DNA from: Candidatus Undinarchaeales archaeon
GTDB lineage: Archaea > SpSt-1190 > JASMDC01
Direction: 5' to 3'
Length of the DNA stretch: 30,261 nt
Assembly (NCBI GenBank): GCA_030753015.1
Contig: JASMDC010000043.1
Span: 1-30,261 of the forward strand
Shown here piece after piece: positions 24,168 to 28,558 of this stretch. The first letter of the stretch is position 1, and each line of letters starts with the position of its first letter. Made by a program: the position numbers and the translations under genes. The notes beneath the pieces are model-generated. The model did no database searches. It was not told the origin of the DNA and saw nothing but the letters and a program-made list of their open reading frames with translations.

Positions 24168-24561
24168 CGACCCGGTGGAGAAGAAGGCCCCTGAGAAGAA
24201 GGCCGAGGAAAAGAAGGAAGAGAAGAAGGTAGTGAAGAAGAAGGAAACGCCGAAGGTGACAGAGGCGGAATTAGCATCAGACGTTCGAAGCGTCATCCTC
24301 GACATCCACAAGGCGGTCTCTGATATCAACAAGAAGACCACCGACTTCGAGCGGCGACTAGGCGCCCTCGAGGAAGAGCTCGCCGAGAGCTCCAACGAGC
24401 TCAAGGTCCTTCGTATCTCCGTGTTCAAGACCCTCCCTGACACCGAGGAGACGCGCACTATCCACCGTCAGGCATCGAAGGAGCAGGCCGGTGAGGACGA
24501 GGAAATAGAGACCCTCACTCCTGACATGATGCGCAAGATCAGACGCGCCTCCAGACGCTGA
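24154..24561 (+). CDS. Charged coiled-coil protein, third gene of the secretion-ATPase operon
   Basis: The 135-residue protein has residues 8-40 made almost entirely of Lys, Glu, Ala and Pro. Residues about 45-95 form a clear coiled coil (VRSVILDIHKAVSDINKKTT and onward to ELKVLRISVF), followed by an acidic part and a basic C-terminus (MMRKIRRASRR). There is no membrane helix or enzyme motif. The GTG start at 24154 overlaps the ATPase gene by 14 bases, with GGAGG about 11 bases upstream, so it is translationally coupled and probably an accessory factor for the ATPase. Its position is where a FlaJ-type membrane gene would normally stand, but it is not one. A GC-rich hairpin follows its stop. 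Confidence 0.7.
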   Translation: MPSTDDPVEKKAPEKKAEEKKEEKKVVKKKETPKVTEAELASDVRSVILDIHKAVSDINKKTTDFERRLGALEEELAESSNELKVLRISVFKTLPDTEETRTIHRQASKEQAGEDEEIETLTPDMMRKIRRASRR

Positions 24562-24718: not shown

Positions 24719-27700
24719 TCACGCCTCCGCGTCGACCCGGACAGCCTCGTCGAGCAGCGCTCGGACACCCGCCTCGCGTCGGCAGTACAGGAGCACGCTG
24801 CGTGCCTGGGCGGGTGACGATCCAAGCGCCTTTGCGGCCACCGCCACTGTCGGCTGGGACCCGGGATGGCCCACTAGGTACTCGAGCACGTCCATGGCCA
24901 GAGCCTCCAGTTCGTCGTTATCCACACGCTTGCCATCCTCCTCGAGCACTGATAGGTCGGATAGGGCATCGAGCAGGTTCAGAGCGCTGCGGAGGTCTGT
25001 CAGGGTAGCATCCACCTTCCCAGCGATATCAAGGAATGGGGGTGCGGGCCCTGCTCCGTCCCATACGACCAGGGCCATATCGGTAATCTCACCAAGGCGA
25101 GTGGCTTCCTTGTTCGAGATGTCAGAGGGTCGTACGGTCTCGGTGTCACGGTCCAGCGCGTCCAGGTATCCAAGTGCCTCGGCGACCAGGGACGGTCGCT
25201 CGCCGGTGAGTGCCACGACCTCCTCCAGCTCGACGTCCTTCAGTCCACCGCGCGTCTCGGCCACGTCGTGAAGGAGCTTTTCGATCATGTTCACGCGTCT
25301 TTTCGGGAGAGTCGCGGGCTCCACTGTCACGTCCTTGAGAGAATCCAGGTGGGAGAGCGCCCGCCATAACGTGCCCAGTCCCAATCCCGCGCGTCGCGCC
25401 AGGACCCGCCGGGGGAGTCCCCGGATACGTCCGCCGATCGTGATGACGAGCTTGCCTGCGGCCTTGTCCACAGGCGCGGTACCGCGCCCTGCGTCTGTAG
25501 GGCGGTCGAGAAGGTCACGATCGAACCCGAGGAGCTTGCGTGCCACCTCCATGGTTATGTCGAGAGCTAGCGCTACGGTACCAGCGTCGTCCTCAGGATC
25601 GAGCTCTGCGACCAACCGGGTCGAGAGCACGTCAAGGTGCTTGAATTCGTCCTTGGAAAGTGCCATCGTGTCCAGCTCTACAGGCGAGACGAATGCATGG
25701 AATCCACCCGAAAGGAGGCCCTCCAAGCGGTCCCTCGGGACACGGAGCACGGCGAACAGCTCGACCTCGTTGGGCAACCGGCCACGCTCGGAGCGGAAGA
25801 GGCACATCTTGAGACAGTCGGCGTCCTTCTCTCGTGCGATATCCCCTCGGAGGGCACGGCCCACAAGTGGACCGCGCATCGTGCCCGCACGCTCCCATTC
25901 CACCATCTTGAGCAGACGATCAACATCGAGATAAGGATGCTCGCGCTCGAGCCACGCGCCCACCTTCTTTAGATGGAGGATCTCTGCGGCATCCTCGGAT
26001 CGATCCTCGATCACGCCACCGAGGTCGGCAAGCCTCCGTACGCGAGTACCTGCCACATTGAGCCCGCGTGACGCCGTGACTGCCGTGACCAGGGGAAGGA
26101 CCTCGCGAACGACCTCCCAGGACAGGGTTCTCCTGCGCTCGGGACGGACGATACAGTCCTCCACGGGTCGCAGTAGTCCCGCATGAATCCAGGAGCGACA
26201 GGCGGCATCCCAGTCCTCTGCTTTGGCGTAGCAGGTTCCTGCGCGCTCCCAGAGGCGGGCCTGGTAGAAGCATGAACCGGCCTTGGCCCACTTGCGGGCA
26301 GTCTCGTAACATGTACCGGCCCGGTCCCATTCGCAGGCCTTCTCGTAGCACTTGCCGGCCTTTGCAGGCTTTTTCGCGTCCTCGTGGCACTCACCGGCCA
26401 GAATCCACTCACCTGCCCCCGAGTAACATCGGGCAGCGGCCTCGAGCTTCCCGAGCTCTCGTAACAGTTCTCCAGCACGTGAGAGGTGGCCCGCCGCCTC
26501 AAGGTTCCGTGCGGCCGCTGGTAGGTCATTGGCCTGGAGGAACGCTTCGGCCGCTCGAGCGTGCTCAGCGATGGTCTCGAGGCAACGGCCCTCGTTAGCA
26601 TGGTCGCCGCTCACTTGGTAGCGGTCGGCGGCCTTGTCGAGCGCCCCTGCCTTCTCCCAGGCGATCGCGGCCTTGGCCGGCAACCGTGCACGGTCGAACA
26701 TCTCAGCAGCGTCGGTGTGGCTCTCTACCGTCATGAAGCACTCACCGGCCCGGTTCCACACGCGTGCTTTGCGGTAGAGCGCCGCGGCGTCACCGATCTC
26801 CCCGGCCTGCTCCATGCACTCAGCAGCATCCTTGTAATCGTCTGCACGCTCGTAGCACTCGCCAGCCTCCTTCAGCATCTGGGCCCGCTCGTAGCTCTCG
26901 GCCGCTTCGTGCCAGGACTTCGCGTTGGCGAACGAGTCGCCCGCTTTATCCCATTCCTCGACCTTTCTGAACGATTGACCCGCATCCCGCCATTCCTTCG
27001 CCTTGAAGAAGGCCCTGCCCGCTTCGAGGTCCAGACCTGTGGCCCGGAAGCAGCGTCCAGCACGGTCCCACTCCTCGGCTTCGTTGTACGCAAGGGCGGC
27101 CGGCTCCATGAGCTCCGCGTTCTCGAAGCACTCACCGGCCAGCTCGTACGCTTCGCCCTTCTCGAAGGCCGTACCTGCTCGCTCCATCTGCTCCAGCTCC
27201 TGCCAGAGCTTACCGGCATCGACCCATCGCTCGAGCTTCTCGTAGGCCTCGGCAAGGAGATCGCGCTCTCCCGCCTTCTTGAGGAGGGGGACCGCTCGCT
27301 CGTACTTCCCGGCCTTGAAGAAGGACCGTCCCGCCTTCTCCGACGCCTTGGCCTTGAGATGGTCTTCGGCCGCTTCCTTCCACGCCCCTGCCTCCTCGAA
27401 CGCATGGGCTGCGTTTTCCCACATCTCAGCGTTCTCGTAGCATCGGGCCGCGTTCTTCCAGTCGGCGGCCTTCTCCAGGGCGGCACCTGCCTTGGTCCAC
27501 GCACCGGCCTTCCCGTAATGAACTCCTGCGCGGCCCCATTCATCGGCACGCTCGAAATTACGGGCAGCGGACAGGTCGTCACCGACCTTGGCGAAGATCC
27601 GACCGGCCTTCTTCCATTCCTTTGCCTTCTCCCACGCCTCGGCCGCCTCGGGGTACAACTTGCACTTCTCGAAGCAAGGTGCTGCCCGTGCCCAATGCTC

Positions 27701-28558
27701 GGCCTTGACGAGGTCGGTGGCGGCCAACTTCCAGTCCTTCAGGCGGATGCGGTTCTTAGCAGCATGTGCCCAGAGGCCCGCCTTCTCCAGTAGGTCTGCG
27801 GACTTCTCGAACTCACCCAGCTTCTCGTAGCAGATGCCAGCCCCACGGAGGTCCTCGACCTCCTCGCAGAGGCGCACTGCCTTCTGCCATTGCTTCGCTC
27901 GCATGTAGTTGAGGGCTGCGCGTCCAGGGACCTTGGCGGCATTGAAGAGAGCAGCGGCATGCATCCATCGTTCGAGCCGCTCGGAAGCGACCGCCGCGTT
28001 CATGACATCGCCCGATTTCTTGAAGGCGACGAAGGCACCCTCCCACTCTCCTGCCAGGGCGTACTCCTCACCAGCAAGGTCCCACATGTTCCCCTGCTCA
28101 AAGCAGTCCGCGGCCTTGAGATGGTCACCCGTTGCTGCGTACACCTCACCGGCCTCGACCCAGGCGCGAGCCATTTCAAGGTGTCGTCCCGCTTCCTCCA
28201 GCCGTCCTAGCTTGCGAGCGAGCCGACCTGCCTCCAACCAGTCCTCGAGATGTACGAAAACACCAAGGAGCCGGTCAATCTTCCCGGCCTTCTCCCAGGC
28301 CCGTGCAGCCTTTTCCCAGCTGCGCGCCGATTCCCATGCATGTGCTGCCTTCTCCCAGTTACCGGCCTTCCAATGCTCATAGGCGGCTCGCTCCCAGGCA
28401 TCTCGTGCCCGGTTCGGGTGTTGGGCGGCGTCCCAGCAGCGACCGGCGTCCTCCCAGTTGTTGGCCTTCTCGTACAGGTTTGCGGCTTCAACGAACTCGC
28501 CCTGTCCCTCGGCCGTCCTGGCCCGACCAGCATCCCCGAAGAGGTTCTCGAGCACCAC
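24719..28558 (-). CDS. Giant 13-residue-repeat protein with a separate C-terminal domain
   Basis: The product has 1279 residues. Residues 25-798 consist of 59 complete tandem units of exactly 13 residues, broken only by a 7-residue part-unit (51-57). Typical units are AGTCYETARKWAK and AAEAWEKAKEWKK. The consensus is Ala, then Ala or Gly, a large aromatic or aliphatic residue at position 5, Ala at 8 and often Trp at 11, fitting a solenoid of short amphipathic helices. General annotation would call it TPR-like, but TPR has a 34-residue period. Residues 799-1279 are unrelated to the repeats and contain several segments resembling winged-helix domains. There is no signal peptide or membrane helix, so it is probably a cytoplasmic scaffold. 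The GTG start at 28558 follows the TATA element at 28592-28601. A GTG directly after it is an alternative. It is monocistronic, ending next to the tRNA. No function can be named. Confidence 0.9.
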   Translation of the reverse strand: MVLENLFGDAGRARTAEGQGEFVEAANLYEKANNWEDAGRCWDAAQHPNRARDAWERAAYEHWKAGNWEKAAHAWESARSWEKAARAWEKAGKIDRLLGVFVHLEDWLEAGRLARKLGRLEEAGRHLEMARAWVEAGEVYAATGDHLKAADCFEQGNMWDLAGEEYALAGEWEGAFVAFKKSGDVMNAAVASERLERWMHAAALFNAAKVPGRAALNYMRAKQWQKAVRLCEEVEDLRGAGICYEKLGEFEKSADLLEKAGLWAHAAKNRIRLKDWKLAATDLVKAEHWARAAPCFEKCKLYPEAAEAWEKAKEWKKAGRIFAKVGDDLSAARNFERADEWGRAGVHYGKAGAWTKAGAALEKAADWKNAARCYENAEMWENAAHAFEEAGAWKEAAEDHLKAKASEKAGRSFFKAGKYERAVPLLKKAGERDLLAEAYEKLERWVDAGKLWQELEQMERAGTAFEKGEAYELAGECFENAELMEPAALAYNEAEEWDRAGRCFRATGLDLEAGRAFFKAKEWRDAGQSFRKVEEWDKAGDSFANAKSWHEAAESYERAQMLKEAGECYERADDYKDAAECMEQAGEIGDAAALYRKARVWNRAGECFMTVESHTDAAEMFDRARLPAKAAIAWEKAGALDKAADRYQVSGDHANEGRCLETIAEHARAAEAFLQANDLPAAARNLEAAGHLSRAGELLRELGKLEAAARCYSGAGEWILAGECHEDAKKPAKAGKCYEKACEWDRAGTCYETARKWAKAGSCFYQARLWERAGTCYAKAEDWDAACRSWIHAGLLRPVEDCIVRPERRRTLSWEVVREVLPLVTAVTASRGLNVAGTRVRRLADLGGVIEDRSEDAAEILHLKKVGAWLEREHPYLDVDRLLKMVEWERAGTMRGPLVGRALRGDIAREKDADCLKMCLFRSERGRLPNEVELFAVLRVPRDRLEGLLSGGFHAFVSPVELDTMALSKDEFKHLDVLSTRLVAELDPEDDAGTVALALDITMEVARKLLGFDRDLLDRPTDAGRGTAPVDKAAGKLVITIGGRIRGLPRRVLARRAGLGLGTLWRALSHLDSLKDVTVEPATLPKRRVNMIEKLLHDVAETRGGLKDVELEEVVALTGERPSLVAEALGYLDALDRDTETVRPSDISNKEATRLGEITDMALVVWDGAGPAPPFLDIAGKVDATLTDLRSALNLLDALSDLSVLEEDGKRVDNDELEALAMDVLEYLVGHPGSQPTVAVAAKALGSSPAQARSVLLYCRREAGVRALLDEAVRVDAEA
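26165..28486 (-). repeat. Tract of 39-base coding repeats (59 units of 13 codons)
   Basis: Each unit is 39 bases. The units are diverged at DNA level but keep register over 2.3 kb with a single break of 21 bases. By hand count, position 1 is Ala in 55 of 59 units, position 2 is Ala or Gly in 54, and position 11 is Trp in 29. The last four units (26204-26359) are the most alike, which suggests later duplication at that end. Confidence 0.9.

Follow-up and report, generated by a model that had tools for sequence, protein, structure and literature searches.

Reviews of alpha-solenoid proteins discuss two-helix units of about 31-40 residues, and no published description of a 13-residue helical solenoid was found in the open-access literature. 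The closest described system is the TPR, a unit of two helices in 34 residues with a recognizable signature (W4, G8, Y11, A20, F24, A27) and an inter-repeat linker of 8 residues that contains P32. By profile, the best natural relatives of solved structure are the WD40-TPR proteins IFT144 (E 1.2e-11) and IFT172; the IFT-A and IFT-B solenoids contain short stretches with a 13-residue step, but no more than about 3-6 in succession and interrupted by slips, and carry WD40 propellers besides. SNAP (PF14938) and the clathrin heavy-chain repeats (PF00637) are also matched above cut-off, but over short local stretches, and to our knowledge neither has been described as an exact 13-residue array.

The archaeal window considered here (the whole stretch of 30,261 nucleotides that was analysed) contains a gene for a protein of 1279 residues in which a 13-residue unit recurs 59 times. 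In the reading that we prefer, at a probability of roughly 75%, the array would be a TPR relative that lacks linkers and forms a long alpha-solenoid, likely a passive scaffold or spacer of elongated shape that binds proteins.

The gene and its surroundings

The features of the gene are collected in Table 1. In its reading frame the GC content of the three codon positions is 0.71, 0.47 and 0.74. The gene stands alone: on one side it converges with the region of a pilus-type ATPase gene, and on the other its divergent neighbour is a small uncharacterized ORF, beyond which lies a KaiC-like ATPase gene. This orientation of the neighbours does not suggest an operon, and the TATA-like ATATAAAA suggests that the gene may have its own promoter. 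PADLOC found no defence-system signature in this gene or for the other array proteins. Directly after the pilus ATPase gene, a K/E-rich low-complexity DNA repeat lies inside a 135-residue ORF (24177-24246).

Table 1. Features of the 1279-residue array protein gene, in positions of the window
Feature	Positions	Strand	Basis
Whole gene, 1279 aa, GTG start	24719..28558	-	ORF list
13-mer units 1-2, aa 22-47	28418..28495	-	tiling
7-residue insert PNRARDA, aa 48-54, sole slip in the array	28397..28417	-	tiling
13-mer units 3-59, aa 55-795, 57 contiguous	26174..28396	-	tiling and autocorrelation
16 units folded, aa 588-795; positions 1-10 of each unit predicted helical, 11-13 a turn	26174..26797	-	AlphaFold2
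C-terminal region, aa 796-1279, without confident family	24722..26173	-	sub-threshold HTH_64 match only
TATA-like ATATAAAA, lying about 35 nt 5' of the start codon	28593..28600	-	direct reading

The 13-residue array

Dynamic programming with a refitted 13-mer profile tiles the protein with 59 units of 13 residues that are free of gaps but for one insert between units 2 and 3. The tiling score is 961, whereas 20 control sequences, shuffled and refitted in turn, average 196 and reach 231 at most. The BLOSUM autocorrelation of residues 1-810 peaks at 13, 26, 39, 52, 65 and 78 residues (z 18-21 against shuffled sequence, about 21 at lag 13), with nothing comparable away from multiples of 13; minor side peaks at 6-7 residues represent the helix pattern within one unit. 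Both the count of 59 and the single slip of 7 residues had been claimed in the original prediction and are borne out, and its placement of the array at residues 25-798 (nucleotides 26165-28486) differs from the tiling only in phase, by 3 residues. Its description of the repeats as exact holds for their length and fails for their sequence, adjacent units being only about 27% identical in amino acids.

The unit consensus is W-E-K-A-A/G-R/E-C/A-F/Y-E-K-A-G-D/E. The fourth position is the most constant, with Ala in 55 of the 59 units (93%), followed by A/G5 (54/59), F/Y/W8 (43/59), A11 (39/59), W1 (30/59) and G12 (21/59). All four Ala codons are used at A4 (22, 12, 11 and 10 times), and so conservation acts on the protein. 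At the nucleotide level the identity of units to one another is 0.43; within the gene, no DNA array was reported by Tandem Repeats Finder. The codon spread, the absence of a DNA tandem array and the low identity of neighbouring units together indicate that the units are old.

No peak was found at 34 residues, where a TPR control does peak, nor does the array show the 35-residue unit of PPR proteins. It had been recognized at the outset that the true unit might be 26 or 34-39 residues, and of these only the first finds an echo, as a weak alternation of odd and even units (z 3.2, reached by 1 of 200 shuffles). That the unit is in fact a 26-residue hairpin of two unlike helices, in effect a short TPR in which the 13-residue step is only pseudo-symmetry, appears unlikely, but it is the alternative that deserves the closest attention. 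The autocorrelation is slightly higher at lag 26 than at lag 13 (0.93 versus 0.76), the alternation falls mainly on G12 and C7 in the odd units, clear 26-residue doublets occur in another archaeal genome (L096), and arrays of the cyanobacterial group have higher-order periods of 52 residues. However, the alternation is worth just 1.7 BLOSUM points where the mean is about 11, odd and even units have every conserved position in common, the predicted helices are of equal length, and in a paralogue with 84 units the alternation is absent (z -0.8). Because of this last result, and the conserved positions common to both phases, the structural unit is taken as 13 residues, with a weak secondary alternation in the 1279-residue protein.

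Paralogues, the C-terminal region and possible function

Three further genes of the same genome hold 13-mer arrays, each with a different tail. The largest product (1307 residues) has 84 units and a tail resembling a zinc ribbon, the second (381 residues) has 15 units and an end that is SHOCT-like, and the third (357 residues) has 12 units and an acidic tail; a further helical domain in the C-terminal part is common to the first two (E 1e-15, with 28% identity over 109 residues). At E 1e-10 the other nine genomes of the class gave no match. A Cys-rich ORF of at least 1215 residues, whose N-terminal part resembles cell-wall-binding repeats, was also noted in this genome (L024:2-3646, minus strand).

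For the C-terminal 484 residues of the 1279-residue protein, 297 archaeal genomes gave no relative; the region has no internal repeat of significance, and its single-sequence fold is uninterpretable (pLDDT 39). Some segments appear by eye to resemble winged helices, and the HTH_64 match, which is sub-threshold, lies at the end of the region. The region could make the protein a regulator or an enzyme subunit.

For the array itself a scaffold role seems most likely, by analogy with TPR-type solenoids generally and from its reuse with different tails in the three paralogues, which is expected of a generic scaffold module. That the array instead reads nucleic acid helix by helix, in the manner of PPR or TALE proteins, with the C-terminal region as a DNA-binding tail, is improbable. 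The length and regularity of the array, the winged-helix-like segments and the helicase fusions in bacteria would suit such a function, but the column counts show no hypervariable two-position code, and the charge of the array, near neutral to slightly acidic (114 K+R versus 131 D+E), does not suggest a nucleic-acid-binding face.

Relation to the TPR

Under the array's own profile a consensus TPR falls into a strict 13+13+8 tiling, its two helices scoring 8.5 and 5.7, and a natural archaeal 34-residue TPR protein (L027) tiles in the same way. By this tiling the 13-mer corresponds to the step from helix A to helix B, and the missing piece is the 8-residue linker. The likeness extends to the residues, with equivalents of the TPR signature present in the unit as W1, A/G5, F/Y8, A4 and A11. 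In both systems a W or Y opens the helix, a G or A lies at the helix crossing, and an aromatic residue is followed by a small one; the Trp, Gly and aromatics of the 13-mer resemble TPR helix A, and the A4/A11 pattern resembles helix B. The differences are that the array unit has one helix in 13 residues where the TPR has two in 34, that neither a linker nor a P32-type turn is present (zero spacer across 57 units), and that the global superhelix does not superpose. The tiling, taken with the superposition of the predicted model on TPRs with linkers skipped, makes a linkerless TPR-like solenoid a well supported reading of the array. The original prediction had proposed just this, a TPR hairpin step repeated without the inter-repeat loops, and it is supported by the tiling as well as by the predicted fold and superposition given in the next section.

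It is very improbable that the protein belongs with ordinary TPR or SNAP-type proteins, its repeats having just degenerated. Pfam does return SNAP (73.8 bits against a cut-off of 25, as 8 partial stretches), TPR_2 (51.6 bits) and Clathrin (39.9 bits) above cut-off, and NCBIfam gives sub-threshold matches only. However, the profile matches are scattered short bits of one motif, and, besides the lack of a 34-residue autocorrelation peak, ordinary TPRs tile as 13+13+8, and TPR proteins of this ordinary kind among the loci have at most 2 contiguous 13-mers versus 57 here. As regards the IFT proteins, Pfam finds no WD40 match in the 1279-residue protein, and the array already starts at residue 22.

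Predicted structure and packing

Sixteen units were folded with AlphaFold2 (Table 1), using a four-row alignment made from the segment and three others of the same protein; since all rows come from one protein, the coevolution evidence is thin. The prediction has a mean pLDDT of 97.1 and a pTM of 0.82, and four of the five models reach a mean pLDDT of 95-97. In the model each 13 residues form a 10-residue helix and a 3-residue turn, that is, one helix per unit (helices H27-36, H40-49 and onward at a spacing of 13), with the first pair fused at the free end. It had been foreseen that structure prediction might show ordinary hairpins or a coiled coil, and the one-helix unit argues against the latter. 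A continuous coiled coil, or a single long helix with a 13-residue rhythm of composition, has next to no likelihood, since, for all the weak 6-7 residue autocorrelation and the abundance of A, E and K, the predicted helix is broken each 13 residues (pLDDT 97), position 12 is repeatedly Gly and position 13 repeatedly an acidic or turn residue, and 13 is no multiple of a heptad or hendecad.

The best Foldseek matches of the model are consensus TPR proteins, SNAP and IFT proteins, and the antiparallel helix-turn-helix stacking typical of TPRs is seen in the predicted model and in its TPR superposition. With a second aligner, about 95 contiguous model residues superpose on short TPR designs to within 2.7-3.0 Å, covering about 120 TPR residues with the linkers skipped, as for the TPR 6vfk_A (Z 12.7, rmsd 2.7 over 96). 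Over the whole length the superposition on TPRs drifts to 11-15 Å over about 200 residues, as for 8chy (Z 14.8, rmsd 11.0 over 198). A local fit with global drift is what would be expected if TPR-like packing without linkers followed a different global path.

For the linkerless TPR-like solenoid the following arrangement is proposed. Each 13-mer would consist of a 10-residue helix from W1 to K10 and a turn formed by A11, G12 and D/E13, and neighbouring helices would pack antiparallel through A4, A/G5, C/A7 and F/Y/W8 together with W1 of the next unit, much as helices A and B pack inside a single TPR. With the 8-residue linker missing, the helix-to-helix steps would be nearly all alike. Other alpha-solenoids rise about 5 Å per helix, and at that rise the 59 helices would stack into a long, thin solenoid of roughly 30 nm, which might present or link partners along its length and carry the distinct, possibly winged-helix, C-terminal region.

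Whether such arrays amount to a distinct class of alpha-solenoid, having a single 13-residue helix-and-turn unit with equivalent steps and elongated separately, to dozens of units, in this archaeon and in a cyanobacterial clade, can be put forward only tentatively; were it so, a screw-symmetric, straight two-layer rod would take the place of the open TPR superhelix. A natural array with one short helix per 13 residues, in which 57 to about 92 units follow one another, would have a shorter unit than any other alpha-solenoid that we know of. Its existence would mean that helices of TPR type can pack over very long stretches with no linkers between them; it would also offer a minimal module for repeat-protein design and a means of testing how unit symmetry sets curvature, and would correct the annotation of proteins at present labelled TPR, SNAP or clathrin-like.

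Relatives in archaea and cyanobacteria

The array is real and unusual but not unique, as arrays of similar or greater length occur in the 84-unit paralogue and in a cyanobacterial group (up to about 92 units). A search of archaea with a 13-mer profile, as proposed when the repeat was first noticed, gave matches in 30 of 394 genomes (six-unit profile, E 1e-10), and outside the source genome these are short runs of 4-5, 9 and 10 units. The runs of 4-5 contiguous 13-mers, of the same consensus, belong to a widespread archaeal membrane protein (L031, L034, L035, L039 and relatives), probably from Thermococcales, in which the short array stands behind transmembrane helices and is followed by a fixed pattern of inserts of 7, 5, 12 and 25 residues. 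The 10-unit run is in a UvrD-helicase protein. The 9-unit run comes from one small archaeal genome and consists of 26-residue doublets; several genes of such doublets (YxxAAxIWLQLDN KxKAAEAYEKxGx), broken by 3-residue slips, were seen in a small archaeal genome at L096:6931-8079 and L097:5606-7809. Proteins of another kind (L080, L083, L099), of which one genome has several copies near each other, carry six successive 13-mers at the N-terminus, followed by an apparent FGE-sulfatase (formylglycine-generating-enzyme-like) domain; these proteins could be targets of diversity-generating retroelements.

The single 1279-residue protein had no relative in the scan of genome contigs; a synthetic consensus matched five loci there, all of them lacking a long array. 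With the 1279-residue protein as query no relative was found in plasmids, nor was one found in viral contigs, and 391 genomes around a Bacteroidota strain gave no match at E 1e-12 in a search that had no positive control. Among 388 genomes around Microcoleus vaginatus, on the other hand, 20 match and about 15 have large array proteins. The cyanobacterial assignment of each of these genomes is presumed from the search centre and from matches on Crinalium and Euhalothece plasmids. The complete large proteins have roughly 1200-2170 residues, several with recognizable UvrD-helicase domains, and contain from about a dozen to about 92 contiguous 13-mers.

These UvrD-helicase-like proteins (L092-L095, L100, L101) share with the archaeal array its contiguous 13-mers, here from about 13 to about 92 of them, of consensus WEKAAxCYEKxGx. 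They differ in the fused helicase-like N-terminal part, in a 52-residue higher-order period that is clear in most of the arrays tested, and, in L100, in a recent internal duplication. The L100 protein (L100:3590-10111, minus strand) has 2173 residues and 98 tiled 13-mers, with a strong six-unit period (z 12.8) and near-identical blocks of 78 residues pointing to recent expansion. With a cyanobacterial array as query, plasmids gave two partial matches, from Crinalium and Euhalothece, both annotated as UvrD-helicase. On the Crinalium plasmid pCRI9333.06 (L103:1-6442), the UvrD-helicase relative of the array proteins adjoins ParA and DUF262/DUF3696 genes.
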